Of a stretch of 64,000 bases of DNA, positions 5,802 to 20,880 are shown in pieces. A program made the translations under genes and the position numbers. Origin of the DNA: Cellulomonas uda (GTDB lineage Bacteria; Actinomycetota; Actinomycetes; Actinomycetales; Cellulomonadaceae); NCBI RefSeq assembly GCF_006538705.1, contig NZ_BJLP01000002.1, forward strand, positions 1 through 64,000, read 5' to 3'. The first letter of the stretch is position 1; each line of letters opens with the position of its first letter. Under the pieces are notes generated by a model. It was not told where the DNA came from. It made no database searches and saw only the letters and a list, made by a program, of their open reading frames with translations.

Positions 5802-6200
5802 TCAGTGGGTGGGGATGACGTGGCAGACGCCGTCCTCGGAGCAGGCCGCGGGGTTCAGGGTGGCTGCGCGGTCCCGGAGCCGGCGGACCTCCTCGCGCGT
5901 CGCCTCGAGCTCTGCGATGCGCTCGTCCAGGGCAGCGGCGTGTCGGTCGAGCAGCGCGGTGACGTGTCCGCAGGGCGGCCCTTGGTCTTCGCGGACCGTG
6001 ATGATGGTGCGGATCTCGGCGAGGCTCAAGCCGGCACCCTGGGCGGCTCGGACGAAGCGGAGCCGCGCGAGCGATGTCTCGTCGTAGTCGCGGTAGCCCG
6101 ACGCGGTCCGGGCCGGCTGCGGCAGCACCTGCGCCTGCTCGTAGAACCTCAAGGTCTTCGTCGTCATACCCGCCTGCTCGGCCAGCTCCCCGATCCTCAT
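5802..6200 (-). CDS. merR: MerR-family metal-responsive regulator, probable MerR
   Basis: A 132-residue regulator with the N-terminal MerR winged helix (MRIGELAEQAGMTTKTLRFY), a long coiled dimer helix and three metal-loop cysteines at 77, 120 and 126. This spacing is close to Cys82/117/126 of classical Hg(II)-binding MerR. It is divergent from merA, with the shared promoter between them, the standard arrangement. It should untwist the over-long spacer when Hg(II) binds. ZntR/CadR-like cadmium, zinc or lead sensing is the main alternative, but merA next door favours mercury. Confidence 0.87.
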   Translation of the reverse strand: MRIGELAEQAGMTTKTLRFYEQAQVLPQPARTASGYRDYDETSLARLRFVRAAQGAGLSLAEIRTIITVREDQGPPCGHVTALLDRHAAALDERIAELEATREEVRRLRDRAATLNPAACSEDGVCHVIPTH

Positions 6201-6217
6201 GGTCTCAAGGCTACGTC

Positions 6218-6249
6218 TTGACCTTGCCGTGCGGTGGAACGTTTACGGT
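6218..6249 (+). promoter_or_regulatory. MerR-type merA promoter and operator
   Basis: A -35 TTGACC (6218-6223) and -10 TACGGT (6244-6249) are separated by 20 bp, the over-long spacer typical of MerR-activated promoters. The spacer holds an interrupted dyad, ACCTTGCC against GGTGGAACGT. The -10 ends six bases before the ATG at 6256, so the merA transcript is probably leaderless. Confidence 0.8.
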
Positions 6250-6255
6250 CCGTCG

Positions 6256-7635: not shown

Positions 7636-7947
7636 ACGGCAGCGGCTGACCGGTTCCGCGCGGCCCGTGTCCCACTTCCTTGGAAGTGGAACAGGCGGGG
7701 AGCCCGCAGTTCGTGCGGAGACCGTGTGGTCTTGGCGTTCAGGTGGCGGGGCCTTGTCGGTGTTCTGTGGCGGTCGGGTCAGCTGGCGCCGACAACCAGG
7801 GGGTGATCGCGGGTCTACCGCGAGATCTGCCAGCGCGGCCACGCGATGGCAACACCGGCGCGGCTATCCGCCATGCCTCTCCTCGGAGCTCTTCGCTCCG
7901 TGCGTGCAGTCTCTCAACCGAGATGCGTCATGGGCCGGGGCAGGGCG
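7636..7947. other. Gene-less stretch after merA with palindrome and possible IS scar
   Basis: No convincing gene. Bases 7672-7689 form a perfect 8-bp-arm palindrome (CCACTTCC, TT, GGAAGTGG) that could be a merA terminator or a protein site. Bases 7741-7794 read on the minus strand begin TGTC and contain CTGACCC with GC-rich subrepeats, resembling the inward ends of the IS21 element at 1-2221. It may be the scar of a lost element. Both readings are tentative. Confidence 0.35.
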
Positions 7948-8547
7948 TCAGAGGCCGAAGGCTCCGCCGCTGACGAGGATGACGATGCCCAGGCCGATCA
8001 GAACGATCGGGAACAGCACGTGTTCCCAGCGTTCGAGGACTTCGGCGATCGGTCGGCGCGTGGCGATGAACTTGGCCAGCATGACGAGGATCGCGACGAG
8101 CAGGAGGAAGACGACACAGTAGGCGACCACGGCTACAGGTCCCACGTTGAGGAAGACCGGGACGTAGACGCCGATGTTGTCTCCTCCGTTGGCGAAGGTG
8201 ACCGCGGCGACGGTCAAGACGCCGACGTTCTTGCCCTCAACCTTGGCGTCATCGTCATCGTCGTCGCTCCCGCGCCAGGCCCGCCATGCGGCCCACAGGC
8301 CTAGGGCCAGGGGGATGAGCCCGAAGTAGGGGATGGCTTCTTCAGGAAGGAATGCTCCCGCGCCCAGTGACACGAGCACGGCGGTGCCCAGGATGCCGGC
8401 GAACCCGAGGTACTGGCCTGCGGTGATCCGGGCCGTCGTCCCGCGTTGCCCTGCGCCCCGGGCGAAGAACAGCGAGAGCACGATGATGTCGTCGATGTTG
8501 GTGGCAACGAACAGGCCGATCGCCTGCAGGACCGAGGAAACGATCAC
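7948..8547 (-). CDS. cadD: CadD-family cadmium resistance membrane transporter
   Basis: A 199-residue membrane protein with about five hydrophobic segments. CadD hallmarks are the N-terminal ATNIDDIIVL and the internal NGGDNIGVYVPVF, conserved acidic motifs of this LysE-like family that confer Cd(II) resistance. A cytoplasmic run of six aspartates lies near residue 95. The GTG start at 8547 overlaps the cmtR stop (GTGA), so the pair is translationally coupled and cadmium-inducible through CmtR. Length matches the family. Efflux direction and metal range are inferred from the family. Confidence 0.9.
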   Translation of the reverse strand: MIVSSVLQAIGLFVATNIDDIIVLSLFFARGAGQRGTTARITAGQYLGFAGILGTAVLVSLGAGAFLPEEAIPYFGLIPLALGLWAAWRAWRGSDDDDDDAKVEGKNVGVLTVAAVTFANGGDNIGVYVPVFLNVGPVAVVAYCVVFLLLVAILVMLAKFIATRRPIAEVLERWEHVLFPIVLIGLGIVILVSGGAFGL

Positions 8548-8903
8548 GCGTCAGGCTCCGCGTTGGCGCACCCGGGAACAGGGCAGGCAGGATCGATGCA
8601 GGGAGCGTTCTCATTCACGGCGAGGGTGACCTCGACCAGTGCGTTGAGCGCCCGTGCCAGGTGCGGGTCGGCGATCTCGTAACGTGTCTGGCGGCCCTCG
8701 GGCTCGGCGACCACGATGCCGCAGTCGCGCAGGCAAGCCAGATGGTTCGACACGTTCGAGCGCGTCAGCCCGAGGTCGCGTGCCAGCTCTGCCGGATAGG
8801 CGGGCCGCTCCAACAACGCCATCAGGAGCCGTGACCGTGTTGGGTCGGCCATTGCCCGGCCCAACCGGTTCATCACGTCCAGGCGAGTAGCAATGCTCAG
8901 CAT
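8544..8903 (-). CDS. cmtR: CmtR-type ArsR/SmtB cadmium/lead sensor repressor
   Basis: A 119-residue winged-helix repressor closely resembling mycobacterial CmtR. The recognition helix LTRSNVSNHLACLRDCG carries Cys57 and Cys61, and Cys102 lies in the C-terminal tail: exactly the three Cd/Pb ligands known for CmtR. Two more cysteines (107, 112) sit in the tail. I chose ATG 8903 because a palindromic operator abuts it and the -10 TATAGT lies seven bases upstream, so the transcript is probably leaderless. The longer open frame upstream runs through the operator. It heads the cmtR-cadD operon. Confidence 0.92.
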   Translation of the reverse strand: MLSIATRLDVMNRLGRAMADPTRSRLLMALLERPAYPAELARDLGLTRSNVSNHLACLRDCGIVVAEPEGRQTRYEIADPHLARALNALVEVTLAVNENAPCIDPACPVPGCANAEPDA

Positions 8904-8922
8904 GTGCTGAACTATACAGCAC
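8904..8922 (-). promoter_or_regulatory. CmtR operator overlapping cmtR-cadD promoter
   Basis: A dyad GTGCTG (8904-8909) and CAGCAC (8917-8922) encloses the minus-strand -10 TATAGT (8911-8916). A repressor bound here would block the promoter directly. The dyad ends at the base before the cmtR ATG. No clear -35 is seen. Confidence 0.75.
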
Positions 8923-8988
8923 TGACTGAACCGGCAGCCTGTGCCGCAAACGAACGATTCCGCTACACGCGCCGGAGGGCCGGGCGGT

Positions 8989-9039
8989 GTGACTTCCAGC
9001 GGAAGATGGCGGGCTTCTGCCGAGGCTAAGTGGCGGTGC
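8989..9039. repeat. Direct-repeat copy B (about 51 bp) flanking metal block
   Basis: Partner of 4568-4618 in the same orientation, with shared GTGACTT, ATGGCGGG, TTCTGCCG and GTGGCGG blocks. It lies in the gene-less stretch 8923-9245 between cmtR and the CueP-like gene. I see no gene or further structure in 9040-9245. Confidence 0.55.
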
Positions 9040-9245
9040 CCGGCCGGGAGTTCCGTCCGGGAGCTGGGGTGATTCTTCGACAGCGCGGGGTCATGACCGC
9101 ACCGCAGCGGTGCACTGTCGCCCGCGACTCGGACCTGTGGTTGCTGCGGCCAACCTCGGCCCAATGCCGCGGAGCTGAGCAACACCCCCGCTTCTGTGCG
9201 TCGACGGCGACCGGAGGCCGAGCCCGCTCGGAGCGGCCGTGTCGA

Positions 9246-9794
9246 TCAGGTGAGTTGGAGGGTGGTCACACAGGTCGGGCTGCCCTCGGTCGTGCTGAAC
9301 GGAACGTTGCCGCTCAGGTCGCCCTGAGTGATCTCGATCGTTCCCTCGACGTCTTCAGGGAGCCAGTAGCCGACGAACCCGTTGGAGTAGGTCGTGGCGC
9401 TCTCCTCGACGAGGACAACACCGTCGGCGTCGGTGATCGTGACCTCCACCGGTTCGTCGACCAACTCGCCCTGGCAGGTCGCGAGGCTGTGGAAGTAGCA
9501 CTCGTGCGTCGTCTCGATGTACGGCGCGATCGAGACGTAGAACTCGCCCTCGTCGAGGGGCACGGCGACCTCGGCGGTCCCGTCGCCGACGAGGACCTCG
9601 TCCTCGCGCACGGAGGCCGTGAAGTTCAGCGGCCGGCTGTCCGTCGAGGTGTCGAGTCGCGTGACGATCTCCTGACCGGTCAGGCCGTCGAGCCCGAGGT
9701 CGGCGAGGACGTCGTCATCCGAGGTGGCGGAGCAGCCGGCGAGCACAGCGGTGGCAGCAACGACGACGGCGGCGAGGCGGAGTCGAGAACGCAT
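9246..9794 (-). CDS. cueP: CueP-family copper-binding lipoprotein
   Basis: A 182-residue exported protein. The N-terminal signal ends in a lipobox LAGC with Cys21 as the likely lipidation site. The family motif CYFHSLATC (Cys99 to Cys107) and a further Cys near the C-terminus resemble the copper site of CueP, an envelope copper chaperone known from Salmonella. Start ATG 9794 is preferred over GTG 9812 because GAGG lies at the right distance and the signal starts cleanly. A phased direct repeat lies 55-72 bases upstream, suggesting control by the two-component system at 17.0 kb. The gene follows copB in the same direction. Confidence 0.85.
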   Translation of the reverse strand: MRSRLRLAAVVVAATAVLAGCSATSDDDVLADLGLDGLTGQEIVTRLDTSTDSRPLNFTASVREDEVLVGDGTAEVAVPLDEGEFYVSIAPYIETTHECYFHSLATCQGELVDEPVEVTITDADGVVLVEESATTYSNGFVGYWLPEDVEGTIEITQGDLSGNVPFSTTEGSPTCVTTLQLT

Positions 9795-9848
9795 GTGAAG
9801 ATCCTCGCTCACCGTCGTGCGCGGCTCCGCCGACCGAAGGCCCGTCGG

Positions 9849-9866
9849 CGATGAAGATTCGATGAA
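9849..9866 (-). promoter_or_regulatory. Phased direct repeat 1 (putative response-regulator box)
   Basis: CGATGAA occurs at 9849-9855 and 9860-9866, 11 bp apart on the same strand, in CGATGAAGATTCGATGAAG. It lies between copB and the CueP-like gene. The same phased pair recurs at 13546, 16956 and 19425. The 11-bp period is typical of OmpR/PhoB-family binding sites. Confidence 0.7.
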
Positions 9867-9878
9867 GGGGTCGTCTGC

Positions 9879-12161
9879 TCAGGCAGCTGGCACCGCTGTC
9901 CGCGGTCCGACGCGCTGGGCCCCGTGTGCTGCGGCTGTCGAGGCCTGTGGGCTCAGGTCAAGACGCCGCAGGAGCTGGGCGTTCGCGGCCACGACGACCG
10001 TGGACAGGGACATGAGGATCGCGCCGATCTCCATCGGCAGGACGAACCCCACCGGCGCGAGGACTCCGGCGGCGAGGGGCACGGCGGCGATGTTGTAGCC
10101 GGCGGCCCACCACAGGTTCTGCTTCATCTTCCGGTAGCCCTCACGGGAGAGCTGGATGACGGACAGGACAGACCGGGGGTCGTCGGAGGCGAGGATGACC
10201 CCGGCCGAGGCGATGGCCACGTCCGTGCCGGCACCGATGGCGACGCCGACGTCGGCCTGCGCGAGGGCGGGCGCGTCGTTGACGCCGTCACCCACCATCG
10301 CCACGGTCCGCCCCTCACCCTGCAGGGAGGCCACCGTGCTGCTCTTGTCCTCCGGGCGGACGCCCGCGAAGACCTGATCGATGCCGAGTTCCGTCCCCAC
10401 GGCCTTGGCCACCGGCTCGGCGTCACCGGTGATCATCACTACGCGGATGCCGAGGGCGTGAAGGGCGTCGACCGCCTCGCGGGACTCCTGACGTACCTCG
10501 TCGGCGAGCCCTAGCGCTCCGGCCACGCGGCCGTCGACCACGACGTGCAGGACGATCTGTCCGCGGTCGGACCAGGGCTGGGTCACCGGCAGAGGATCGA
10601 GCCCCTGCTCGGCCAGGAGGTTCGGGCCGCCGACGGCGACCCAGCGTCCGTCCACGGTGACGGAGACTCCGACAGCCGTCGAGGCCTGGAAGTCCTCGGC
10701 GCGCGGCACCGTGAGCCCTCGATGGTGTGCTGCGGCGGTGATCGCACGTGCCAGCGGGTGCTCGCTGTCGGCTTCCGCGGCGGCGGCCAGCGCGAGGAGC
10801 TCGTCGTCACCGATCCCGGTCGTCGCGACATCGTGCACGGCGGGCTCGCCCTTGGTGAGCGTCCCGGTCTTGTCGAACAGGACGGTGTCGACCACGCGCA
10901 TCCGCTCGAGTGCGGCACGGTCCTTGACCAGCACGCCACCCCGGGCAGCGCGTTCGGTGGAGATCGACACCACCAGCGGGATGGCGAGCCCGAGGGCGTG
11001 CGGGCAGGCGATGACGAGCACCGTGATGGCGCGGATGATCGCGAAGTCCGGTGTCCCGACGGCGCTCCAGATCGCGACCGTGATGACGGCGGCGATCAGG
11101 GCGAACCAGAACAGCCACCCGGCGGCGCGGTCGGCCAGCAGCTGCGCACGCGTCGTGGACGACTGCGCCTGGGCGACCAGTCGTCGGATCCCGGCCAGCA
11201 CGGTCGAGTCACCGACGGCGTCGACCCTCACGCGCAGGGCGCTGTCGGTCGAGACGGTTCCCGCGACGACCTGGTCGCCGACGGTCCGGAACACCGGCCG
11301 CGACTCGCCCGTGATCATCGACTCGTCGACGTCGGCAGCGCCCTCGACGACCTGCCCGTCGGCCGGCACCCGGCCGCCCGGGCGGACGATGACGACGTCC
11401 CCCAGGGCGAGCGAGGACGGAGCGACCGTGACGACGGAGTCGCCGTCGACCTTCTCCGCCTCGTCCGGCAGCAGCGCCGCCAGGGAGTCCAGAGCGGAGG
11501 AGGTCTGCGCCAGGGACCGCATCTCCAGCCAGTGGCCGAGCAGCATGATCACGACCAGCAGGGCCAGCTCCCACCAGAAGTCCAGCTCGTGCGAGAGCAC
11601 CCCGAGGGTCGCGCCCCAGGAGGCGACGAACGCCACGGTGATCGCCATCCCGATGAGCAGCATCATCCCCGGCTTGCGGGCCCGGAACTCAGCGACCGCT
11701 CCGGTGAGGAACGGCCGTCCGCCCCACAGGTAGATCACGGTGCCGAGGGCCGGCGCGACCCAGGTGAGCCCCGGGACGTCGGGGAGGGCATAGCCGAGCA
11801 GGTCGGCGAACATCCCGCTGAGCAGGACCGTCGGCACGGCGAGCGCGAGGTTGATCCAGAACAGGCGCCGGAACAGGGCGACGTGGTCACCGTGACCACC
11901 GCCGTGTGCCCCGTGCCCGCCGTGGCCACCCTCGGCGCCCATGTGCTCGCCATGGTGGCTCGCGGAGGGCCGGTGCTCGGCGTCGTGCCCATCCACATGC
12001 GCGGGCATGTGGTGGCCCTCGTGCTCCATCTGGCCGGCGTCGTGCCCACCGTGGCGGTCGTGAGCCAGCGGATCAGTGTCCTCGACGGACAGCTCGTGCC
12101 GCTGGCTCGCGCTGCTGCGTCGTTCGCCGTGCACGTCGTGGCCCTGGTGCGCGTTGCTCAT
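9879..12161 (-). CDS. copB: CopB-type copper-translocating P1B ATPase
   Basis: A 760-residue P-type ATPase. The first 110 residues form a His/Met-rich cytosolic tail instead of a ferredoxin-like metal domain. Membrane helices, the TGES actuator loop, an intramembrane CPH motif (VIACPHALG), the phosphorylation site DKTGTLTKG and GDGVNDAPAL follow. CPH plus a His-rich N-terminus is the CopB (P1B-3) pattern, for copper export. I placed the start at ATG 12161, behind GAGGAG; the longer frame would read through a CsoR-like operator at 12205-12221. Regulation by copper through that operator is likely. Confidence 0.93.
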   Translation of the reverse strand: MSNAHQGHDVHGERRSSASQRHELSVEDTDPLAHDRHGGHDAGQMEHEGHHMPAHVDGHDAEHRPSASHHGEHMGAEGGHGGHGAHGGGHGDHVALFRRLFWINLALAVPTVLLSGMFADLLGYALPDVPGLTWVAPALGTVIYLWGGRPFLTGAVAEFRARKPGMMLLIGMAITVAFVASWGATLGVLSHELDFWWELALLVVIMLLGHWLEMRSLAQTSSALDSLAALLPDEAEKVDGDSVVTVAPSSLALGDVVIVRPGGRVPADGQVVEGAADVDESMITGESRPVFRTVGDQVVAGTVSTDSALRVRVDAVGDSTVLAGIRRLVAQAQSSTTRAQLLADRAAGWLFWFALIAAVITVAIWSAVGTPDFAIIRAITVLVIACPHALGLAIPLVVSISTERAARGGVLVKDRAALERMRVVDTVLFDKTGTLTKGEPAVHDVATTGIGDDELLALAAAAEADSEHPLARAITAAAHHRGLTVPRAEDFQASTAVGVSVTVDGRWVAVGGPNLLAEQGLDPLPVTQPWSDRGQIVLHVVVDGRVAGALGLADEVRQESREAVDALHALGIRVVMITGDAEPVAKAVGTELGIDQVFAGVRPEDKSSTVASLQGEGRTVAMVGDGVNDAPALAQADVGVAIGAGTDVAIASAGVILASDDPRSVLSVIQLSREGYRKMKQNLWWAAGYNIAAVPLAAGVLAPVGFVLPMEIGAILMSLSTVVVAANAQLLRRLDLSPQASTAAAHGAQRVGPRTAVPAA

Positions 12162-12204
12162 GGCTCTTCTCCTCGACCCGTGCTCCACCGTCATCTGCGT
12201 AAAA

Positions 12205-12221
12205 ATACCCCCAGGGGGTAT
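12205..12221 (-). promoter_or_regulatory. CsoR-like operator upstream of copB
   Basis: A perfect 17-base palindrome ATACCCCCAGGGGGTAT, matching the G-tract and flanking TA architecture of CsoR/RcnR-family operators. It lies 44 bases before the copB start. No csoR gene is visible in this window, so the repressor would be encoded elsewhere. Confidence 0.75.
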
Positions 12222-12292
12222 GAGAGCGGCCAACGGCGTGCTCATGGCCGGTATTCCCGGCTCGGGGGCACCTCGACGCCGAGCGGGTCAGG

Positions 12293-12934
12293 TCAGGGGG
12301 TCGGGCACGAGCGCAGCGCGGTGCCCTCGAAGTCCGGTACGGGGCGCGCGTCGGCCTCGGCCGCCGTTGCTGCGATGCCCTTGCGCTCGATGTCCTCGAT
12401 GAGCCAGTCCATCTCGGCGATCTCCCGCTGCTGAGCCTCGATGATCTCGACGGCGAGCTCGCACACCCGGACGTCGTCGATCTGGGCCCGCTCGGAGCGG
12501 GTGATAGCCAGGGAGTGGTGCGGGATCATCGCGCGCATGAATGCGGTGTCGCCGACCGTGACCTGGCTGCGGTCGAGGGCGACGCCGCCGGCAAGGAGCA
12601 GCACGCTGACGGCGACCACGGCGATGTTCGCCTTCGCGTTCTTGTACATGTTCAGCATCCAGGCGAGCATGATCAGCCCCATCGTGCCGCCCATGGTGAC
12701 CGCCATGAAGATCCGGCTCTGGCTGAATCGGACGTGATCCAGCTCCCACGAGCCGACGAACATCACCCAGTACATGACCACCATGGCCGTGAGGATCATG
12801 GCGGCGAACCGCAGGTACATGCCCTTCATCTGATGGCCCTGCCCACCGCCGTGCCGCTCACCCCCGTGATGGGCGCCGTCACCGTCGTGCTCGTCGTTCA
12901 TCGACTCGCCATCGTGCTCACGCTGCACGGACAT
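12293..12934 (-). CDS. Membrane-anchored DUF305 protein, copper-cluster member
   Basis: A 213-residue protein with a His/Gly-rich N-terminal 35 residues, about three membrane helices (roughly 40-65, 72-95, 105-122) and a DUF305 domain marked by FMRAMIPHHSLAITRSE. DUF305 proteins use His/Met-rich helices and are repeatedly found with copper resistance genes. ATG 12934 follows GAGGAG at a good distance; an inner ATG at 12901 is possible. It sits upstream of copB in the same direction, with the CsoR-like operator between them. Function beyond probable metal binding is unknown. Confidence 0.85.
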   Translation of the reverse strand: MSVQREHDGESMNDEHDGDGAHHGGERHGGGQGHQMKGMYLRFAAMILTAMVVMYWVMFVGSWELDHVRFSQSRIFMAVTMGGTMGLIMLAWMLNMYKNAKANIAVVAVSVLLLAGGVALDRSQVTVGDTAFMRAMIPHHSLAITRSERAQIDDVRVCELAVEIIEAQQREIAEMDWLIEDIERKGIAATAAEADARPVPDFEGTALRSCPTP

Positions 12935-13030
12935 CGCTGCGTCTCCTCGTCTCGCTCCTACCTGCCTGGGTGTCGGACGGACTCACGGGGTGCTGCGGGC
13001 GGGATGCCCGCCGGCACCGCGTGGACGGGC

Positions 13031-13432
13031 TCAGCGGATGGCCGCGAGGAGCTCGGCGCAGGCGGCCTCGCAGTCCCGGCACGCCTCGGCGCAGATGCGG
13101 CAGTGCTCGTGCATGCCCGCGTGCTGCTCGCACTCGTCGCCGCAGGCCCGGCACGCGGCGATGCAGGCCTCGAGGTGAGCCCGGGTGATATTGGCGTCAT
13201 AGCCGGTGTGGCGGGACAGGATCCGCGCCGTGGCCGCGCAGCTGTCGGCGCAGTCGAGGTTGGACCGGATGCACTTGCGCAGGTCGGCGACCATCTCCTC
13301 ACTCAGACACGCGTCCGCGCACGCGGTACACGCCTGCGAGCAGGCGACCAGGGACTCGATGACGCGAGCCAGCAGCTGGCGGTCGAGGTTGATGGTCGCG
13401 GGGTAGGTGTCGAGCATCTGCGTGGTCTTCAC
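13031..13432 (-). CDS. Csp-type four-helix-bundle copper storage protein
   Basis: A 133-residue protein with 16 cysteines spaced along four predicted helices in CxxC, CxxxC and similar patterns (ACSQACTACADAC, EACIAACRACGDEC, HCRICAEACRDC). Csp proteins line a four-helix bundle with cysteines and store many Cu(I) ions. No signal peptide is present, so it should be cytosolic, like Csp3. GTG 13432 is chosen because AGGAGG lies five bases upstream; ATG 13417 is too far from it. A phased direct repeat lies 114-131 bases upstream. Confidence 0.88.
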   Translation of the reverse strand: MKTTQMLDTYPATINLDRQLLARVIESLVACSQACTACADACLSEEMVADLRKCIRSNLDCADSCAATARILSRHTGYDANITRAHLEACIAACRACGDECEQHAGMHEHCRICAEACRDCEAACAELLAAIR

Positions 13433-13545
13433 GACGGCCTCCTGATTTGCGGATCGTGCGGCACATCGATCGCTCGTGCGCCGCGGGGACCCTTTCGACG
13501 CTATGCACAGGGCCGCGTGTTCGCGCGGTGAGAGGGACGGCGCCG

Positions 13546-13563
13546 CCATGAAGGTTCGATGAG
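13546..13563 (-). promoter_or_regulatory. Phased direct repeat 2 (putative response-regulator box)
   Basis: CCATGAA at 13546-13552 and CGATGAG at 13557-13563, 11 bp apart, in CCATGAAGGTTCGATGAGG. It lies upstream of the Csp-type gene in the otherwise empty interval 13433-13622, and matches the repeats at 9849, 16956 and 19425. Confidence 0.7.
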
Positions 13564-13622
13564 GGTCTCTCCGGCGGACGGCCGCGCAAGGGCGAACGCG
13601 CGTCAGGCCGTGAATCCGACGG

Positions 13623-14000
13623 CTACGCCGCAGGGCCGGCGGGCACGGGGTCAGAGCGCTGGATGACGTTGCCGACGAGTCGGTCGGGCAGTCGCGCGAC
13701 GCCCGGACCGCCGCACCGGAGCCAGCGCGCGAGCTCGCCGGTGACTTCATCCCCGGCGAGGCGTTCGAACCACACCGGTCGTGCGCCGGTGCGGCGGCAT
13801 GCACCGGACGGACGAGCGACCACGACGTCGCCGCGATCGCACGCGTCGAGGCAGTCGACGGTCGTCAGGCGAGCCACGCCGGAGTCGGCCAGGTGCCTCA
13901 GGCGCTGCAGCTGGCCACCCGGGGCGGTGTCAGCTTCGCCCAGGGTCTCTCCGGCACACAGACTGCACGCGGTGAGGCCGGGCAGGTTCTTCCTTGTCAA
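13623..14000 (-). CDS. Thioredoxin-like 2Fe-2S ferredoxin-domain protein
   Basis: About 125 residues. Four cysteines are arranged as CSLC near the N-terminus and CLDAC about 35 residues later, followed by VVVARPSG and a PVWFERL segment. This is the pattern of small actinobacterial (2Fe-2S) ferredoxin-domain proteins. The start is uncertain: the frame is open to GTG 14087, but that lies inside a strong hairpin, so I list TTG 14000, which lacks a clear ribosome site. It lies between the Csp-type and DUF305 genes in the same direction. Its redox partner is unknown. Confidence 0.65.
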   Translation of the reverse strand: MTRKNLPGLTACSLCAGETLGEADTAPGGQLQRLRHLADSGVARLTTVDCLDACDRGDVVVARPSGACRRTGARPVWFERLAGDEVTGELARWLRCGGPGVARLPDRLVGNVIQRSDPVPAGPAA

Positions 14001-14077
14001 ACGGGGAGTTCGGCACCGGGCGACGGTACGTCCGCACCTAGCGCTTCGCCGCAGCGCCGGTGGCAGACGCACGCGAC

Positions 14078-14110
14078 AGGAGGCCACCTTTTCGTGCGGG
14101 GTGGCCTCCT
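14078..14110 (-). terminator. Intrinsic-type terminator after DUF305 lipoprotein gene
   Basis: A perfect 11-bp stem AGGAGGCCACC / GGTGGCCTCCT (14078-14088, 14100-14110) with an 11-base loop. It lies 21 bases past the stop of the gene at 14132. There is no long T tract, common in high-GC genomes. Confidence 0.75.
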
Positions 14111-14131
14111 GCCGGTCGTGCTGCGGGCTGC

Positions 14132-14758
14132 TCAGAGGGACCGCAGCAGGTTCTCCATCTCGGTGATCTCTATGTTCTGGTCGTCCCTGATCGTCCGGGC
14201 GAGTGCCAGGGCGTCGGGGTCTGCGCCCTCGCCGATCTGGGCCTGGGCCATCTCGACGGCGCCGCGGTGGTGGGCGACCATGAGCTCGAGGAACCTCCGG
14301 TCGAACGCGACCCCTTCAAACTCGGCCAGGGTGGACATCGCCTCCTCCTGGTCCATGCCGTCCATCTCCATCCCGCCGTGGTCCATGCCGCCGTGCTCAG
14401 CCTCAGCGGGGAGCTCCTCGTCCCAGGTCTCCAGCCAGCCGGACATGAGCTCGATCTCCGGGCCCTGCGCTGCGGCGATTCGCTCGGCCAGTGCGCGCAC
14501 CTCGTCGGTGGAGGCCCGCTCGACCGCGAGCTCAGCCATCTCAAGCGCTCCCTGGTGGTGGACGATCATCATCTGCGCGAACTCCACGTCGGCGGCGTTG
14601 TGCTCAGTCGCCGCCTCGGCGTCCTCGCTGCTCGAGGACTCCTGCGCCGCGGGGGGTTCGGGCGTCGGTTCGTCGGCGGTGGAGCAGGCGGTCAGGGTGG
14701 CCGCCAGGGCGAGTGCTGCTGTCGTCGCGGCGAGGCGCCGGCGCGTGGTGCTCGTCAA
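14132..14758 (-). CDS. DUF305 lipoprotein, probable envelope copper binder
   Basis: A 208-residue exported protein. A twin-arginine-like start and hydrophobic stretch lead to a lipobox LTAC with Cys25. A Ser/Glu/Ala-rich linker precedes two DUF305 helical units, FAQMMIVHHQGALEMAEL and FLELMVAHHRGAVEMAQ, joined by a His/Met-rich segment (HGGMDHGGMEMDGMDQ). Similar proteins bind copper outside the membrane. The start is TTG 14758, with AAGGA nine bases upstream. A terminator follows at 14078-14110. It is distinct from the membrane DUF305 protein at 12293. Confidence 0.9.
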   Translation of the reverse strand: MTSTTRRRLAATTAALALAATLTACSTADEPTPEPPAAQESSSSEDAEAATEHNAADVEFAQMMIVHHQGALEMAELAVERASTDEVRALAERIAAAQGPEIELMSGWLETWDEELPAEAEHGGMDHGGMEMDGMDQEEAMSTLAEFEGVAFDRRFLELMVAHHRGAVEMAQAQIGEGADPDALALARTIRDDQNIEITEMENLLRSL

Positions 14759-14791
14759 GGGGTGGTTCCTTCCCAGGATCGGTGTTGGGGA

Positions 14792-14923
14792 TCAGGCCGA
14801 GGTGCTGGTCGTGCAGCAGGTGTCCGCGCCCTGAGCGCCGCCGCCGCAGCAGCTGTTGCTCGTCGTGGTGGCCGTGCTCTGGGTCGTGGTCGTCGAGGTA
14901 GGGGTGTCCTGGCAGCAGCCCAT
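14792..14923 (-). CDS. Cysteine-pair miniprotein, possible metal-binding peptide
   Basis: A 43-residue peptide with three CC pairs: GCC at the N-terminus, SCC in the middle and TCC near the end. These are separated by Thr/Ser-rich spacers and one GGG. No signal or membrane segment is present. ATG 14923 follows an AAGGAG site at the right distance and the stop is TGA at 14792. It lies between the thioredoxin-like gene and the DUF305 lipoprotein gene, in the same direction. I know no family for it; the paired thiols and context suggest copper or other soft-metal binding. It is too short for usual gene finders, so confidence is moderate. Confidence 0.6.
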   Translation of the reverse strand: MGCCQDTPTSTTTTQSTATTTSNSCCGGGAQGADTCCTTSTSA

Positions 14924-14975
14924 CGGGCTCTCCTTCATAGGTCGGTGACGCGCGCGTCAGGTCAAACGGTGATGG

Positions 14976-15602
14976 TCAGAGTCGGCTGGTGACCTCCTTG
15001 AGCAGGTCGGCGGGGGCAAGCCACATGGACGGGTAGTTGCCGTGCCACAGCTGGTTGCCGTCGGCGTCGACCAGGACGAACCCGTGCCCCGGGAGGCCTT
15101 CGTGCATGCCCTTGCCGAGGGTGTCGTAGGCGGCGGAGACGGTGCCGTCGTCAAGCAGGAACGGTGCCTGGACGCCGAGGCGTTGGCGATCGGTGTTGAT
15201 CTGCTCGGCGGTGTTCATCACGATCGGCAGCACGGTGATGCCGGTCTCGGCGAACGCTGGATCCTTCTCGATCTCGGCCATCTGCAGCAGGCATGAGTCG
15301 CAGCCGGCGCCCTCGTTGAAGTACAGGACGACCGGTCCACCGCGGAAGTCCGCCAGCGAGACGGTCGAGCCGTCCGAGGCGGGCAGCGTGAAGTCCGGTG
15401 CGACGCGCACGTCGCTGGACGTGGTCGGCTGGGAGGTGATCAACGCGGCGGCGATCAGCGTGGCCACGATCAGCAGACCGGCGCCCCACGCGGCCCAGCT
15501 GATGCGCTGGCGGCGGCGCGCCTGTCCCGCCTGCGCGGCCTGAACCTCCTGCAGAGCCTGCTGGCGTTCGGCGAGGCGACGGGTGGCGGTTCCGGAGGTC
15601 AT
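14976..15602 (-). CDS. Membrane-anchored AhpC/TSA thioredoxin-fold protein
   Basis: A 208-residue protein: charged cytoplasmic N-terminus, one membrane helix (about 37-57) and an extracytoplasmic AhpC/TSA domain starting APDFTLPASDG. The active-site-like pair is Cys101/Cys104 in GAGCDSCLLQ. It probably reduces or carries disulfides outside the membrane, with electrons from the CcdA-like protein encoded by the overlapping upstream gene (15599-15602, ATGA). Peroxidase activity is possible but the CxxC favours a TlpA-like thiol role. Its coupling to copper genes suggests repair of copper-oxidised thiols. Confidence 0.82.
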   Translation of the reverse strand: MTSGTATRRLAERQQALQEVQAAQAGQARRRQRISWAAWGAGLLIVATLIAAALITSQPTTSSDVRVAPDFTLPASDGSTVSLADFRGGPVVLYFNEGAGCDSCLLQMAEIEKDPAFAETGITVLPIVMNTAEQINTDRQRLGVQAPFLLDDGTVSAAYDTLGKGMHEGLPGHGFVLVDADGNQLWHGNYPSMWLAPADLLKEVTSRL

Positions 15603-16582
15603 CGGGTCACTTCTTCCGTGGTCGGGGTGGCGTGGCAGGACGGGACGGGCACGGCTGGGCCGTCGCTCGGCCCTGCAGCAGCCGTGGTCGTGGCCGGGGC
15701 GGCGCTTTTCGACCGAGCGGGCCGGCGCCGGTCGACGAGCGTCGCCCAGATGAACGCGGCGGCGACCGCGAGCAGCGCCAACCCCTGCAGGGGCTCGGGC
15801 ACCGGAGACAGGAAGTCCTGGACGGCGGCGAACACGTCGGTCAGGGTGCGGCTGGCGGCGTCCTGGAACGCCGAGCCGCCGGTCATGTCCTTGCTGCCGG
15901 CCAGGGCGATGACGAACACGCCCATCACCGTGAACCCGACCGCGACGGCGATGTTGAGGGTGTTGGTGACCAGGGTGCGGCCCGCGACGCGCAGCCGGAC
16001 GGTTCTGGCCTGGAACAGCTTGCGCTCACCGAGGCGCGCCTTGTCCCAGACCAGGGCGATCACGAACAGCGGGAAGACCATGCCGAACACGTACGCCAAC
16101 CCCAGGGCCAGCCCCCCGATGGGAGACCCGGACAGAATCGACAGGGTCATCACCCCGGCCAGGACTGGGGCGCAGCACGAGGACGCGATCCCGGAGAACA
16201 CCCCGAGGGAGAAGAAGCTCGCGGTGTCACCACCGGTGGTATCCGGAGTACGCAGGAACGACGGCAGCGACCACATCCGACCCGAGAGGGCCAGGCCCGC
16301 CAGGGCGATCATCAGCAGGCCGCCGGCCCAGTACAGCGGAGCGTGGTACCGGGCGATCGCGCCGGCGAGCAGGCTCATCCCCAGCGTGATCGGCACCAGC
16401 ACCACGGCCAAGCCCGCCGCGAAGACGAAGGTCAGCGGCAGCAGCCGCCACCGGGCGTTCTTGACCGCACCGGCCAGGTAGGACGGCGCCAGGAAGACGA
16501 TGCAACACGGGGCGAACAGGGCCACCCCGCCGGCGAAGAACGCCGCCAGGATGCTCCCGGTCGTCAGCAACTCGCTGCCCAT
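15599..16582 (-). CDS. CcdA/DsbD-family transmembrane thiol transporter
   Basis: A 327-residue polytopic protein with six or more hydrophobic segments. Cysteine-containing motifs APCCIVFLAPS in the first half and SSCCAPVLAG in the second correspond to the paired redox cysteines of CcdA, which passes electrons across the membrane. The C-terminal 50 residues are a Pro/Ala/Thr-rich tail. It starts one base after the glutaredoxin-like stop and overlaps the thioredoxin-like gene at its end. Together the three genes form a cytosol-to-envelope thiol relay. Confidence 0.87.
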   Translation of the reverse strand: MGSELLTTGSILAAFFAGGVALFAPCCIVFLAPSYLAGAVKNARWRLLPLTFVFAAGLAVVLVPITLGMSLLAGAIARYHAPLYWAGGLLMIALAGLALSGRMWSLPSFLRTPDTTGGDTASFFSLGVFSGIASSCCAPVLAGVMTLSILSGSPIGGLALGLAYVFGMVFPLFVIALVWDKARLGERKLFQARTVRLRVAGRTLVTNTLNIAVAVGFTVMGVFVIALAGSKDMTGGSAFQDAASRTLTDVFAAVQDFLSPVPEPLQGLALLAVAAAFIWATLVDRRRPARSKSAAPATTTAAAGPSDGPAVPVPSCHATPTTEEVTR

Positions 16583-16583
16583 C

Positions 16584-16880
16584 TCAGGCCCCGACCGCTG
16601 CCGTGCGCCGGCTGTGCAGGACCTTGGTGAGCTTCTTCCGCGGCAGTCGCCCGGCGGAGAAGAACTCCCCGTCTACCAGCACCAGCGGGTTCATCGGCGG
16701 GCGGTGCTCGGCGACCAGGGCCCGGCCCTCGTCCGTATCGATGCCGACACTGCGGACCACCAGCGGGAAATCACCGGCCAGGGCGGCTAGGGCCTCCTCG
16801 GCGTCGTGGCAGAAATGGCACGCCGGGGCATGGACGACGGTGACGAGGACCGGTGGGTCGGCGGGCTCGATGGTCGACAC
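16584..16880 (-). CDS. Glutaredoxin/thioredoxin-like small protein
   Basis: A 98-residue protein with a beta strand followed by CHFC (Cys21, Cys24) and helix HDAEEALAALAG. A central RPPMNPLVLVDGEFF resembles the cis-proline strand of glutaredoxins. It is likely cytosolic and may feed electrons to the CcdA-like protein encoded directly downstream. Start ATG 16880 is divergent from the response-regulator gene; a phased direct repeat lies 76-93 bases upstream and could serve both directions. Confidence 0.82.
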   Translation of the reverse strand: MSTIEPADPPVLVTVVHAPACHFCHDAEEALAALAGDFPLVVRSVGIDTDEGRALVAEHRPPMNPLVLVDGEFFSAGRLPRKKLTKVLHSRRTAAVGA

Positions 16881-16955
16881 GGGTTCTCCTGCAGGCGGTC
16901 GCGGATCGGTACATGTGGAGCGTCGACGTGCCGCACCGAAGGACCGGTCGCCCTT

Positions 16956-17013
16956 GGATCAAGGTTCGATGAAGGTCCCCGACCGGCGTCCGTCCGCAGC
17001 CGACAATGGCCAG
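16956..17013 (+). promoter_or_regulatory. Phased direct repeat 3 and response-regulator promoter
   Basis: GGATCAA (16956-16962) and CGATGAA (16967-16973) lie 11 bp apart, just upstream of the expected -35 region. A -10-like GACAAT is at 17002-17007, six bases before the GTG at 17014, so the transcript is probably leaderless. This is the position expected of an OmpR-family activator site, suggesting autoregulation. The repeat also faces the divergent thiol-relay genes. Confidence 0.7.
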
Positions 17014-17745
17014 GTGACCCCCACCCCAGACACCACGACGACCACAGCGCGGCGCGCGGTCGTCGTCGACGACGAGCAAGCCTTGGCCCGGCTGGTGGCC
17101 GGATACCTCGAGCGGGACGGGTTCGAGGTCAGCGTGACCCATGACGGTTCGCAGGCCGTCGGGGTGCTGCGCGAGGTCGATCCGGACGTCGTCGTGCTGG
17201 ACCTGGGCCTTCCCGGACTGGACGGGGTCGAGGTGTGCCGTCAGCTGCGCACGTTCTCCGACTGCTACGTGATCATGCTGACCGCCCGCGCCGAGGAGGT
17301 CGACACCCTCATCGGCCTGTCGGTCGGTGCGGACGACTACATGACTAAGCCCTTCAGCCCGCGTGAGCTCATGGCCCGGATCGCAGTCCTGCTGCGTCGA
17401 CCCCGCCGACCCGCTCCCGCCGTCGCAGCGGCGGCGCGCCCTGCTGTGGAGATCGGGGCGCTACGGCTCGACACGGACGCCCGCGAGGTGCACCTCGAGG
17501 GCCGCCTCGTGCCGTTGACGCGCACCGAGTTCGACGTCCTCGCCGCACTCGCTTCAGGCCCCGGACGGGTGTTCAGCCGCCAGGCCCTGATCGAGGAGGT
17601 CTGGGGCGCCAACTGGGTCGGTGACGAGCACCTCGTCGACGTGCATGTGCTGCACGTGCGCCAGAAGCTCGGTGACAGTGCTGAACAGCAACGGTTCGTG
17701 CGCACGGTGCGAGGTGTCGGGTACCGGATCGGGACCGGGGAGTGA
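17014..17745 (+). CDS. OmpR-family response regulator of the copper/thiol cluster
   Basis: A 243-residue regulator: receiver domain with acidic pocket VVDDE, phosphoacceptor Asp63 (VVVLDLGLPG) and conserved Lys in DDYMTKPF, then a winged-helix DNA-binding domain (LTRTEFDVLAAL ... VRGVGYRIG). GTG 17014 is chosen because a -10-like hexamer ends six bases before it. The stop overlaps the kinase start. It likely binds the 11-bp direct repeats at 9849, 13546, 16956 and 19425. The signal is not shown by the sequence; copper or thiol stress is inferred from the neighbours. Confidence 0.92.
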   Translation: MTPTPDTTTTTARRAVVVDDEQALARLVAGYLERDGFEVSVTHDGSQAVGVLREVDPDVVVLDLGLPGLDGVEVCRQLRTFSDCYVIMLTARAEEVDTLIGLSVGADDYMTKPFSPRELMARIAVLLRRPRRPAPAVAAAARPAVEIGALRLDTDAREVHLEGRLVPLTRTEFDVLAALASGPGRVFSRQALIEEVWGANWVGDEHLVDVHVLHVRQKLGDSAEQQRFVRTVRGVGYRIGTGE

Positions 17746-18860
17746 AGCCGATCCCGCCGGCAGCGCGGTGGGGCCTTGCAGGTCGCCTGCTCATCGCGCT
17801 CGTCATCGTGCTCGCGACCGCAGCCCTGACAGCGTGGCTGGTGGCCTCCGCCGTGGGCCCAGGCCTGTTCCACGAGCACATGGTGCGCGCCGGCCTGGAG
17901 GACCACGACGACGCCGTCATGCACGCCGAGCGGGCCTTTCGCGACGCGAGCGCCGTCTCCCTGGCCCTGGCCCTGGGCGCCGCCGCTGTGGCCTCAACTG
18001 CCGTGAGTCTCGTGCTCGCGCGGCGCATCGGCCGGTCTCTGGCGGCCGTGGCCACCGCTGCGGCGCGCCTGGGCGCCGGTCGGTACGAGTCCCGCGTCCC
18101 GGCTGCAGGACTGGGCGCGGAGTTCGACGACCTCGCCGAGTCGTTCAACGCCATGGCCGCGCGGCTGCAAGAGGCCGAGCGGCTGCGGGCCCGGCTCCTG
18201 GCCGACGTCGCCCACGAGGTCCGCACCCCCGTCGCCACCATCGCCGGGTACCTCGAGGCCGTGGAAGACGGCCTGCAACCGATGGACGAGCCCACAATGG
18301 CCGTGCTGCGCGACCAGTCCGCGCGCCTGACCCGGCTGGCACGCGACCTCGCCGCGGTGACCCGCGCCGAGGCCGGTGACCTCGTACTCACGCTCGAACC
18401 GCTCGCGCCAGACGAACTGCTTGCAGCGACCACCGGCACCTGGCGGGAGCGCGCGACCGCCGCCGGGGTCGACGTGCGGGTCCAGGTCGACCCCGAGCTG
18501 GGACACGTCCGTGTCGACCGCCAGCGTATGGGCCAGGTCCTGGACAACCTGGTCGCCAACGCACTGCGTCACACCCCGGCCGGAGGCACGATCACGCTCC
18601 GTGCGACCGGCGGTTACCAGCGCGTGGCGCTGCACGTGTCCGACACCGGTGCCGGCATCGCGCCCGAGCACCTGCCGCACCTGTTCGAGCGCTTCTACCG
18701 GGCCGATACCGCGCGTGACCGTACCCACGGCGGATCGGGCATCGGCCTGGCGATCTGCAAAGCGCTCACCGAGGCCCACGGCGGCACCATCACCGCAACG
18801 AGCGACGGCCCGGGAGCCGGCGCATCGTTCACCGTCACGCTTCCGGTGCCGCCCGGCTGA
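17742..18860 (+). CDS. Sensor histidine kinase paired with OmpR-type regulator
   Basis: A 372-residue kinase: membrane helix 1 (about 17-38), a loop of about 30 residues, helix 2 (72-93), HAMP domain, HisKA with phosphoacceptor His158 (DVAHEVRTP), and an ATPase domain with N-box NLVANALRHT and DTGAGIAPE. The short outer loop is rich in possible metal ligands (His44, His46, Met47, His55, Met60, His61), which fits copper or silver sensing. The GTG start overlaps the regulator stop. A metal signal is inference from these residues and the gene cluster. Confidence 0.92.
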   Translation: MKPIPPAARWGLAGRLLIALVIVLATAALTAWLVASAVGPGLFHEHMVRAGLEDHDDAVMHAERAFRDASAVSLALALGAAAVASTAVSLVLARRIGRSLAAVATAAARLGAGRYESRVPAAGLGAEFDDLAESFNAMAARLQEAERLRARLLADVAHEVRTPVATIAGYLEAVEDGLQPMDEPTMAVLRDQSARLTRLARDLAAVTRAEAGDLVLTLEPLAPDELLAATTGTWRERATAAGVDVRVQVDPELGHVRVDRQRMGQVLDNLVANALRHTPAGGTITLRATGGYQRVALHVSDTGAGIAPEHLPHLFERFYRADTARDRTHGGSGIGLAICKALTEAHGGTITATSDGPGAGASFTVTLPVPPG

Positions 18861-18862
18861 GC

Positions 18863-19108
18863 TCAGCGGGCTCCCGGCGCCGCGCTGTGCGGCGGCGACG
18901 TCACGGGCGCGTCCGCCGTGACGTCGTGCGCGCCATGGTGGGGCTGCCCGGTGTGGCCGCGGCGGTGCATCCACACCATCATGGCGATCATCATCAGCGG
19001 GCACGCCAGCGCAGCCGCCAACGCCGCGCCAGGACGCACACCCGCTGCCAGCGCCACGACCAGCACCGCCGCAGCAGCGACGACCATTCCCTTGAGGTGG
19101 CTCTTCAT
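18863..19108 (-). CDS. Small DUF2933-like membrane protein
   Basis: An 81-residue protein with two hydrophobic segments; the second contains ACPLMMIAMMVWMHRRGH, followed by a His-rich tail (GQPHHGAHD). The CPLMM...MH pattern resembles DUF2933 proteins found with copper and silver resistance genes. ATG 19108 follows GGAAGGA and overlaps the stop of the SHOCT gene, so both are co-translated. It converges with the kinase gene, with two bases between stops. The Met/His content suggests metal contact at the membrane; there is no direct evidence. Confidence 0.75.
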   Translation of the reverse strand: MKSHLKGMVVAAAAVLVVALAAGVRPGAALAAALACPLMMIAMMVWMHRRGHTGQPHHGAHDVTADAPVTSPPHSAAPGAR

Positions 19109-19341
19109 CGCAGTCCTTCCGATCGCGCCGGCACAGGTCCGGCGAGCTCGGCGTGAAGCCTGCGGTAAGTGTCCACATCGATCTGCCCGGCGGCCAGCCG
19201 GGCGTCGAGCAGCGTCACCGCGTCCGGCTCTGGTGCAGCGGGAAACAGTCGCGTCACCGCCCACACGGCCATGCCGAGCACCGCCAGGCTCGACGCGAGG
19301 ACCAGCCAGCCGCCGACTCCCAGATCCACGCACCACGGCAT
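19105..19341 (-). CDS. Small SHOCT-domain membrane protein
   Basis: A 78-residue protein: one membrane helix (about 8-32), then a C-terminal SHOCT motif LLDARLAAGQIDVDTYRRL. SHOCT tails mediate oligomerisation and are common in small membrane proteins near metal genes. ATG 19341 has GGGAG eight bases upstream. It is the first gene of a two-gene unit with the DUF2933-like protein, and a phased direct repeat lies 84-101 bases upstream. Confidence 0.8.
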   Translation of the reverse strand: MPWCVDLGVGGWLVLASSLAVLGMAVWAVTRLFPAAPEPDAVTLLDARLAAGQIDVDTYRRLHAELAGPVPARSEGLR

Positions 19342-19424
19342 CGGTCCGCTCCCTCTCGCGCCGGGCGCCGACGGCGCCCACGGCCTGAGGCTGCCCCGGG
19401 TACCCCCAAGATGCGGTCGAGGTC

Positions 19425-19442
19425 CGATGAAGGCTCGATGAA
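19425..19442 (-). promoter_or_regulatory. Phased direct repeat 4 (putative response-regulator box)
   Basis: CGATGAA at 19425-19431 and again at 19436-19442, exactly 11 bp apart, in CGATGAAGGCTCGATGAAAG. It lies upstream of the SHOCT/DUF2933-like pair. It is the fourth member of the set at 9849, 13546 and 16956. Confidence 0.7.
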
Positions 19443-19618
19443 AGAGAGCTCGTCGGGAACGCAAACCCGTTGGGCAATCGATGCCAGGCTGCTCAGTCCA
19501 GGGCGCCGCGACTAGGGCGTGTCTCCTAACCTTCCGGCGAGGTGCCCGTGTCGCGCGTCAGACTTAGTGGCAGGGCCCGTTGTTAGCGGGCCTGACCTGT
19601 GAAGGAATCTGATCGATC

Positions 19619-19936
19619 ATGGCGAGACCCCCGGTGATGCAGGCGGAGGAGAAGGTCCGGATCGTGTTGTCGGTCCTGGCCGGTGAGGTGACCGTGGCGG
19701 AGGCCGCGCGGCGGGCGAAGGTGTCCGAGCAGTCGGTCGGGAACTGGAAGCGCCAGTTCCTGGAGGCCGGCAAGACCGGCCTGGCCGCTGGGAAGTCGGG
19801 TCCCTCGACGCGTGAGGCCCAGCTCGAGGCCGAGGTCGCGGATCTGACCCAGGCGCTGGGTGAGGCCGCGGTCGAACTGCGGGTGTGGAAGAAGTCCGCC
19901 GAGGGCCGCCTGGGCCCTTCGAGGACCTCGAGGTGA
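19619..19936 (+). CDS. IS3-family transposase OrfA
   Basis: A 105-residue protein with an N-terminal helix-turn-helix (EEKVRIVLSVLAGEVTVAEA and following) and a C-terminal leucine-rich coiled coil, the usual OrfA layout. It recognises the element ends. Before its stop lies GGGCCCT (19912-19918), read as G GGC CCT: a canonical -1 slippery heptamer. Slippage places the ribosome exactly in the OrfB frame, giving the OrfAB fusion that acts as transposase in IS3 elements. Confidence 0.9.
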   Translation: MARPPVMQAEEKVRIVLSVLAGEVTVAEAARRAKVSEQSVGNWKRQFLEAGKTGLAAGKSGPSTREAQLEAEVADLTQALGEAAVELRVWKKSAEGRLGPSRTSR

Positions 19937-20880
19937 TCCGCTCCGAGGCGGGCATGCCGACCGCGAGGTTCTGCGCTGTGATCGGTGTGCCCGAGCGGAC
20001 CTGGCGCCGCCACCAGTCCCGCGCCCGTGCCGGGGCACAGCCCAACAGACCGTGGCCGCGTCCGGCCCGCGAGAGCGTGCGCGAAGCCGCCCGCCGGCAC
20101 GCGCTCGCGCATCCGGCGTGGGGTCACCGCAAGGTCTGGGCGATGTGCCGCCACGACGGCCACCAGGTCTCCCAGGCCACGGTCCTGCGGCTGCTGCGCG
20201 ACGAGGCACTGATCTTGCCCGCGTCCTACCAGCGTGAACGCCGTCAGCTCGCTGCGCGCCGCAAGGCCGCGTTCGCGACCGACCCGACGGGCCCGAACCA
20301 GGTCTGGCAGCTGGACTTCTCCGAGTTCGAGACCACGACCGGCGGGACCTGGCGCATCGCCGGGTGCCGGGACTACTGGAGCAAGTACGAGCATCGCTGG
20401 CACGTGTCCCCGACGGCGAACCAGCACGACGCGATCGAAGCGATCGAGCTCGCCCTGGCCGACTACGAGAACATGTTCGGCCAGCCGCTGATCGAGGCGT
20501 GCGCCCGCGACCAGGACGGCAACGTGGTCGCGGCGGTCACGATCGTGACCGACAACGGCGGCCCGTTCCGGTCCTTCCGGTTCGAGGCGTTCATCACCGC
20601 CCACCCCGAGCTGCGACACGTGCGCACCCGGGTCCGCACCCCCGGGCAGAACGGCTCACGCGAACGCGGCTTCGGGTCCCTGAAGTACGAACGGCTGTTC
20701 CTCGAAGAGATCGACGACGTCCTGGACCTCGTCGCCCACGCCGAGGACTACCGCACCGAGTACAACACCGTCCGCCCGCACGAGGCCATCGCCTGGAACC
20801 GACCCCACGACGTCTACCACGGCCTCGCCGACCCCCTGATCCCCAACTTTCCCGAACCCGAGAACCTGCCAGCTGCTTGA
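19885..20880 (+). CDS. IS3-family transposase OrfB (DDE integrase)
   Basis: A 331-residue frame, normally made as an OrfAB fusion by -1 frameshifting at 19912-19918; the listed start only marks the open frame. It has an HTH_21-like segment (HPAWGHRKVWAMC) and an rve catalytic core with Asp in QLDFSEF, Asp in VTDNGGPF and Glu after GSRERGFGSLKYE. The stop at 20880 is nine bases before the right end. No internal damage is seen. Confidence 0.9.
   Translation: MEEVRRGPPGPFEDLEVIRSEAGMPTARFCAVIGVPERTWRRHQSRARAGAQPNRPWPRPARESVREAARRHALAHPAWGHRKVWAMCRHDGHQVSQATVLRLLRDEALILPASYQRERRQLAARRKAAFATDPTGPNQVWQLDFSEFETTTGGTWRIAGCRDYWSKYEHRWHVSPTANQHDAIEAIELALADYENMFGQPLIEACARDQDGNVVAAVTIVTDNGGPFRSFRFEAFITAHPELRHVRTRVRTPGQNGSRERGFGSLKYERLFLEEIDDVLDLVAHAEDYRTEYNTVRPHEAIAWNRPHDVYHGLADPLIPNFPEPENLPAA

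Follow-up and report, generated by a model that had tools for sequence, protein, structure and literature searches.

The four repeats and their genes

The first 64,000 nucleotides of contig NZ_BJLP01000002.1 of Cellulomonas uda (the whole stretch analysed, here called the window) contain a metal island in which four short direct repeats stand ahead of four sets of genes. Judged by their sequence and their relatives, the repeats are very probably CopR boxes, the binding sites of the OmpR-family response regulator CopR, which is encoded among them together with the sensor kinase CopS. All four are given on the + strand, and they differ from the consensus CGATGAAGGTTCGATGAAG by one mismatch in box 1 (9849..9867) and by two in box 2 (13546..13564), box 3 (16956..16974) and box 4 (19415..19443), in agreement with the places listed in the initial annotation of this DNA. 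The core of box 4 occupies 19425-19443, and a matrix scan adds an overlapping third half-site, a 20-mer beginning at 19415.

Box 1 is located upstream of cueP (9246..9794, − strand), whose product belongs to the CueP family (PF21172, E 9.8e-58, 194.2 bits against a gathering score of 27; NF038094, E 2.7e-51). The ATG at 9794, with a lipobox-like LAGC, was preferred by reading as its start over the GTG at 9812, from which the open reading frame (ORF) list takes a longer version. Box 2 lies about 115 bp upstream of the start chosen for csp (13031..13432, − strand; GTG at 13432, chosen by reading, with AGGAGG ahead of it). The csp product is a copper storage-like protein of the Csp/DUF326 type, matched by PF03860 (E 1.9e-12) and below the cut-off of TIGR04401, the Csp1-type copper storage model (35.3 bits against 100). 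After csp come a gene for a DUF305-type membrane protein (12293..12934, − strand; PF03713, E 3.7e-9) and then a copA-like gene for a copper P1B-type ATPase (9879..12161, − strand; TIGR01511, 567.3 bits, cut-off 397), whose start was also chosen by reading, the ORF list giving 12245.

Box 3 separates copR (17014..17745, + strand; PF00072 and PF00486) and copS (17742..18860, + strand; HAMP-HisKA-HATPase architecture, with a short His/Met loop) from a series of − strand genes, so that an OmpR-family regulator and its kinase are indeed encoded amid the sites, as had been proposed. The series starts with a glutaredoxin-like protein (16584..16880; PF05768, E 1.4e-4, under the cut-off) and a CcdA-like membrane protein bearing two Cys-Cys motifs (15599..16582), for which neither Pfam nor NCBIfam gave a match; the genes in the same order on NZ_CP081863.1 are annotated glutaredoxin and CcdA. 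It goes on with a TlpA/AhpC-type thioredoxin-fold protein (14976..15602; PF00578, E 2.4e-18), a 43-residue peptide with three Cys-Cys pairs (14792..14923) and a DUF305/CopM-type secreted protein (14132..14758; PF03713, E 2.9e-49; NF049983 CopM, 105 bits, cut-off 90). A Pfam search with the peptide returned no match and similar peptides occur in three other loci (L145, L159, L201); it is possibly a small metal-binding peptide.

Downstream of box 4 are two − strand genes for small membrane proteins of 78 (19108..19341) and 81 amino acids (18863..19108). The names SHOCT and DUF2933 given to this pair do not find support in Pfam: the 78-residue protein has no match to SHOCT (PF09851) at E ≤ 10, and the 81-residue protein reaches DUF2933 (PF11666) only at E 0.17, with 12.5 bits against a gathering score of 21. 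Relatives of the 78-residue gene in four other loci (L173, L186, L197, L201) have a box 74-96 bp ahead as well.

Occurrence in the genome and across the genus

In the window, CGATGAAGGTTCGATGAAG at up to three mismatches finds nothing beyond the four sites, with a mean of 0.01 in 100 dinucleotide shuffles. The genome-wide counts are pattern searches over 3,563,272 bases in 103 contigs, in which the 18-mer GATGAAGGTTCGATGAAG at up to three mismatches was met at these same four sites only, and its backwards control at none. The exclusivity noted at the outset for the window extends to the 3.56 Mb of the genome, and no random genome-wide spread of the motif was seen. The looser pattern TTCATC-N5-TTCATC, with one mismatch at most, recovers three of the four sites and one unrelated place. 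Chance repetition was considered as the source of the sites and rejected on the shuffle and backwards controls.

The 11-bp period of the four sites is no accident. When the regions upstream of copR were compared (54 distinct ones, 53 from relatives and the window's own), a pair of 7-mers agreeing in at least six of seven positions was present at lag 11 in 79.6% of them, against 23.9% after shuffling, and no other lag from 8 to 24 exceeded 35.2%. The relatives were drawn from 69 regulator matches outside the C. uda genome, 58 of which were fetched with flanks and 11 left out. A permissive box pattern was found in 47 of the 50 distinct upstream regions of relatives with at least 65% regulator identity, 14-92 bp from copR, against four of 1000 shuffles. 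From the boxes upstream of the relatives' copR genes a matrix was built (37 distinct 20-mers, window excluded), which in the 64-kb window picks out four places, with scores of 36.9, 32.4, 27.4 and 22.0, together with the overlapping third half-site at 21.7. Nothing more in the window scored above 8, and the maximum in the reversed window was 7.1. The training pattern was written after the lag-11 result, so the matrix is independent of the window sites and not of the idea of the motif.

Box and regulator go together in the genus. Among 81 Cellulomonas genomes, scored for CopR at E ≤ 1e-70 and for the box at two mismatches at most, the box is present in 39 and CopR in 40: both in 34, neither in 36, the box only in five and CopR only in six (Fisher odds ratio 40.8, p 1.7e-11, relatedness uncorrected). 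These genomes hold 114 boxes, 108 of them in genomes bearing CopR, and a control pattern had no match in any of the 81. A separate 18-mer, GATGAGGGTTCGATGAGG, occurs in eight Cellulomonas genomes, three of them without a CopR match, and may be an unrelated conserved sequence.

Relation to CopRS of Corynebacterium

The CopR box of C. glutamicum, TGAAGATTTnnTGAAGATTT, was defined by electrophoretic mobility shift assay and mutation (PMC3140484), and is also given as TGAAGATTTgaTGAAGATTT (PMC3140484, PMC3353115). Boxes 1 to 4 match it in 14, 13, 12 and 10 of its 18 specified bases, and in 15, 13, 13 and 12 of its first 16 bases. The period of 11 and the TGAAG core are kept, hence the window sites are related to the C. 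glutamicum box and not identical with it. In the open-access library searched, only PMC3140484 and PMC3353115 contain both CopRS and TGAAGATTT, and among the entries listed neither a Cellulomonas CopR regulon nor a directional −10 rule was found.

The likeness covers the proteins and the arrangement of the genes too. In both systems CopR is of the OmpR type and CopS has a short loop with the same His/Met pattern, H-x-H-M...H: in an alignment with the kinase of pLEW279b, residues H44, H46, M47 and H61 of the window CopS correspond, at a constant offset of 5, to H39, H41, M42 and H56, the residues reported for C. glutamicum (PMC3140484). A direct repeat of period 11 reading toward copR is also common to the two, and both gene sets include a copper pump and thioredoxin-like genes. 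The cop region of pLEW279b is 97% similar to that of C. glutamicum (PMC3140484). On this plasmid a box with one mismatch is located at 693-712, about 62 bp ahead of the copR start inferred by alignment (the record annotates a longer copR, beginning at 688), and a second box, with three mismatches, precedes a four-helix copper-binding gene by 109 bp, in parallel with the approximately 115 bp between box 2 and csp. In C. marinum the exact C. glutamicum box stands between copR and a divergent gene annotated CueP; in pLEW279b the divergent gene matches cueP, and in the window a cueP-type gene likewise stands behind box 1. Deletion of copR in C. crenatum lowers cueP and copS mRNA by 78-98% (PMC11124244). 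From the C. glutamicum and C. crenatum parallels it follows that the regulator, the type of box and at least one target belong to a known kind.

The systems differ in extent. A single binding site is reported for C. glutamicum (PMC3140484), whereas the window has four sites and four units, which include csp and the glutaredoxin-CcdA-TlpA series. Searching the window with a Rhodococcus multicopper oxidase gave nothing convincing (best E 0.85). Silver, named along with copper in the initial annotation, is not indicated, because in this nearest studied system the copRS mutants become more sensitive to copper and not to silver (PMC3353115).

Direction of the boxes

The sites were compared in a series made up of the window, 60 Cellulomonas stretches and 10 plasmid stretches (10 records examined of the 52 that match at E ≤ 1e-36), which yielded 170 distinct sites scoring at least 20. 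The flank analysis took the sites scoring at least 24 plus box 4 of the window, 127 with full flanks, reduced by removal of similar flanks to 109 and then to 82. In 58 of these 82 dissimilar sites an A...T of −10 type starts 32-33 nt past the box, on the flank that faces away from copR, while at other, non-adjacent positions the count is at most nine. The −10-like hexamer stands out in the target direction, with z 12.9 at sites adjacent to copR and z 8.5 at the rest. Toward the copR-like side no comparable −10 peak appears (z 3.4 or less); there the A...T is found in 10, 15 and 14 of the 81 dissimilar sites with full flanks at 25, 37 and 47 nt, a count that spans all 81 sites and not just the neighbours of copR, and the 11-bp spacing of these peaks is suggestive but weak. 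Extra half-sites, agreeing in at least four of six positions, were seen at +22 and +33 from the first half-site in 5 and 12 of the 82 sites against a background of 1.9%, which is a weak signal, and no continuation was found at −11 or +44.

Proteins of the window and of the plasmids served as the reference for labelling the genes beside the boxes, and 36 of the 170 sites have no labelled neighbour. copR adjoins the box in 54 places. On the opposite side, which carries 117 labels in total, the neighbours are DUF305 genes (22), CcdA-like genes (13), glutaredoxin-like genes (11), lgt (6), relatives of the 78-residue gene (5, of which two are overlapping sites within a single near-identical copy), csp (3 with the window's own, and one more in pLEW279b) and cueP (3, again counting the window).

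Boxes near lgt (six, all on the opposite side) and lnt (one, in L199) are distributed over loci L167, L169, L174, L180, L190, L192 and L199.

Taken together, these regularities make it somewhat more probable than its contrary that actinobacterial CopR promoters follow a directional grammar, in which two strong CTTCAT half-sites would be continued toward the target by weak phased ones and followed, 32-33 nt from the box and away from copR, by the −10. Promoters of the PhoB type have direct repeats phased at 11 bp, whose end is separated from the −10 by roughly a helical turn, and they lack a clear −35. The CopR boxes share with them the phased repeats, the distance to the −10 and the lack of a clear −35, and differ in that the two distal half-sites are strong and the two proximal ones weak, and in a presumed response to copper instead of phosphate. 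The −10-like element is also present at five of the seven plasmid and Corynebacterium boxes tried, namely the csp box of pLEW279b, three boxes of Rhodococcus/Mycolicibacterium plasmids and one of a Cellulomonas plasmid. In the C. glutamicum mutant, expression of cg3286-cg3289 falls 50- to 100-fold and that of cg3283-cg3281, downstream of copRS, about twofold (PMC3353115), a disparity that agrees with a one-sided box.

Several observations weigh against the grammar. In the window the −10 is at the expected distance in two of the four sites only (boxes 3 and 4), and both Corynebacterium boxes between copR and cueP lack it at the distance seen in Cellulomonas. The mapped start of cg3286, 266-285 bp from the box (PMC3140484), does not fit easily to the rule. 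Furthermore, 18 labels besides copR fall on the copR-like side, nine of which are C40 peptidase genes at 312-400 bp.

The position of the C40 and YibE/F genes on the copR-like side of boxes is contrary to what the direction rule predicts.

If true, the rule would explain through a one-sided promoter the much stronger response of target genes compared with that of copR, and would make the CopR regulon readable from sequence alone in plasmids and chromosomes. It would also add genes not yet tied to copper, such as lgt (lipoprotein modification), DUF305 genes, the small membrane proteins and the Cys-Cys peptide.

Regulatory model and alternatives

We hold with good confidence that the island encodes a CopRS regulon responding to copper excess. 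By analogy with C. glutamicum, CopS would sense copper outside the membrane with its short extracytoplasmic His/Met loop and would phosphorylate CopR. Phosphorylated CopR would then bind head-to-tail to two half-sites, CTTCAT in the direction of the target genes, exactly 11 bp apart, and activate four units whose extents are predicted from gene order: cueP; csp together with the DUF305 gene and, further downstream, possibly copA; the grx-ccdA-tlpA-Cys-Cys peptide-DUF305 series, with copRS divergent; and the pair of genes for small membrane proteins at 18.9-19.3 kb. Strong activation would be expected on the side toward which CTTCAT reads, copR being placed on the other. The notion that the four repeats are operators of the regulator encoded among them, joined in one copper circuit, had been put forward in the initial annotation, and it is supported in its core by the genome exclusivity, the co-occurrence in the genus, the relatives' matrix and the likeness to the C. 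glutamicum box. The circuit is not new as a kind, since CopRS is known; what is added here is the size of the set, the inclusion of csp and the thiol series, and the one-sided promoter rule.

Other data speak against so close an assignment. The last four bases (ATTT) of the second C. glutamicum repeat are mostly lost at the window sites, the window CopR shares only 53.6% identity with the pLEW279b regulator, and against TIGR01387, the heavy metal response regulator model (CzcR/SilR/CopR), it scores 155.3 bits where the cut-off is 279.2. The genomes with a box and no CopR match, or with CopR and no box at the threshold, break the association, and the Fisher test takes no account of relatedness or horizontal transfer. 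Among 27 more distant regulators (44-73% identity, taken from 80 loci) clear upstream boxes are found in some of the closer ones only: sequences are box-like at 14-16 of 18 positions in L005-L009 and L017 and at 12-13 of 18 in L012, L013, L014, L016 and L059, and the remaining 16 give 10-11 of 18, which is no signal. The claim accordingly concerns the closer relatives and not the deeper family.

The copA gene bears a further element, a CsoR-type palindrome, ATACCCCCAGGGGGTAT (12205..12221, no strand applicable), about 43 bp before its chosen start. At up to three mismatches it is found nowhere else in the window and at four places in the genome, two of them without assignment; the backwards control matched once per strand, hence the weaker places mean little. 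One place of like sequence is 47 bp before a csoR-family match on another contig (G000:C8), and the genome has two csoR-family genes, both on other contigs. The G-tract palindrome before a copper ATPase and the csoR-family genes in the genome are shared with the known CsoR/copA operator, so that by sequence both parts of that control are found here, with the difference that csoR is on another contig than copA. With a palindrome of its own, copA need not belong to the CopR layer alone, and copper in the cytosol would be read apart from copper outside the membrane; the arrangement suggests two layers, CsoR for the former and CopRS for the latter.

This second layer could be thought to run most of the copper response, leaving the CopR boxes as a minor or autoregulatory input. 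In C. crenatum csoR acts on copA, and its deletion raises copA two- to threefold (PMC11124244), in line with the palindromes before copA and before the csoR-family match. However, the palindrome occurs at no other place in the window, and thus no CsoR-type site accompanies the CopR boxes of cueP, csp, grx and the 19.3-kb genes; the 50- to 100-fold drop of cg3286-cg3289 in the C. glutamicum mutant points the same way, and dominance of CsoR is judged quite improbable. Scarcely less improbable is that a different OmpR-family regulator is the main one to bind the boxes, with CopR as a bystander. At E ≤ 1e-3 the regulator has 22 matches in the genome, counting its own; the closest of the others, 48% identical (G000:C2:66400), could in principle share the boxes. 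Other OmpR-type regulators use a similar spacing, as C. glutamicum PhoR does in binding 8-bp tandem repeats with a 3-bp linker (PMC3353115). Against it stand the co-occurrence of box and CopR across the genus, the position of the box shortly before copR in nearly all of the closer relatives and the resemblance to the tested C. glutamicum box.

The sites could also stem from a mobile repeat that the metal island carried along as it spread, and be devoid of regulatory meaning. Three other Cellulomonas genomes share parts of the island at 98.0-99.8% identity (G018, G009 and, on its plasmid NZ_CP081863.1, Cellulomonas sp. C5510), and a transposase pair adjoins it. Yet the 82 sites share the −10-like element at a fixed distance in spite of their dissimilar flanks, and boxes sit near recurring copper genes, on which grounds a spreading repeat was rejected as hardly credible. 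Under the favoured CopRS regulon about 13 genes, several without assigned function, would be linked to extracytoplasmic copper sensing. The boxes found across the genus, with a fixed −10 in most, would amount to a simple rule by which copper-induced genes could be predicted on the chromosomes and plasmids of actinobacteria, and the −10 on one side is the explanation on offer for the one-sided response.

Mobility and neighbouring genes

In the near-identical G018 copy of the island (L201, around 3363) about 0.9 kb across copR/copS is gone and the four boxes are kept; that genome has two other CopR genes, for which reason regulation of its boxes may take place in trans. Besides the transposase pair (PF01527, rve_3), genes read from translation as istA/istB-like, resolvase-like and Fic-like occur among 73-2146, 2903-4305 and 19619-20880, and give the surroundings of the island a mobile-element-like character. 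Other metal genes lie at 6199-9185, encoding a cadmium transporter (PF03596), an ArsR-type regulator (PF01022) and a mercuric-reductase-like flavoprotein, the last named by reading only.

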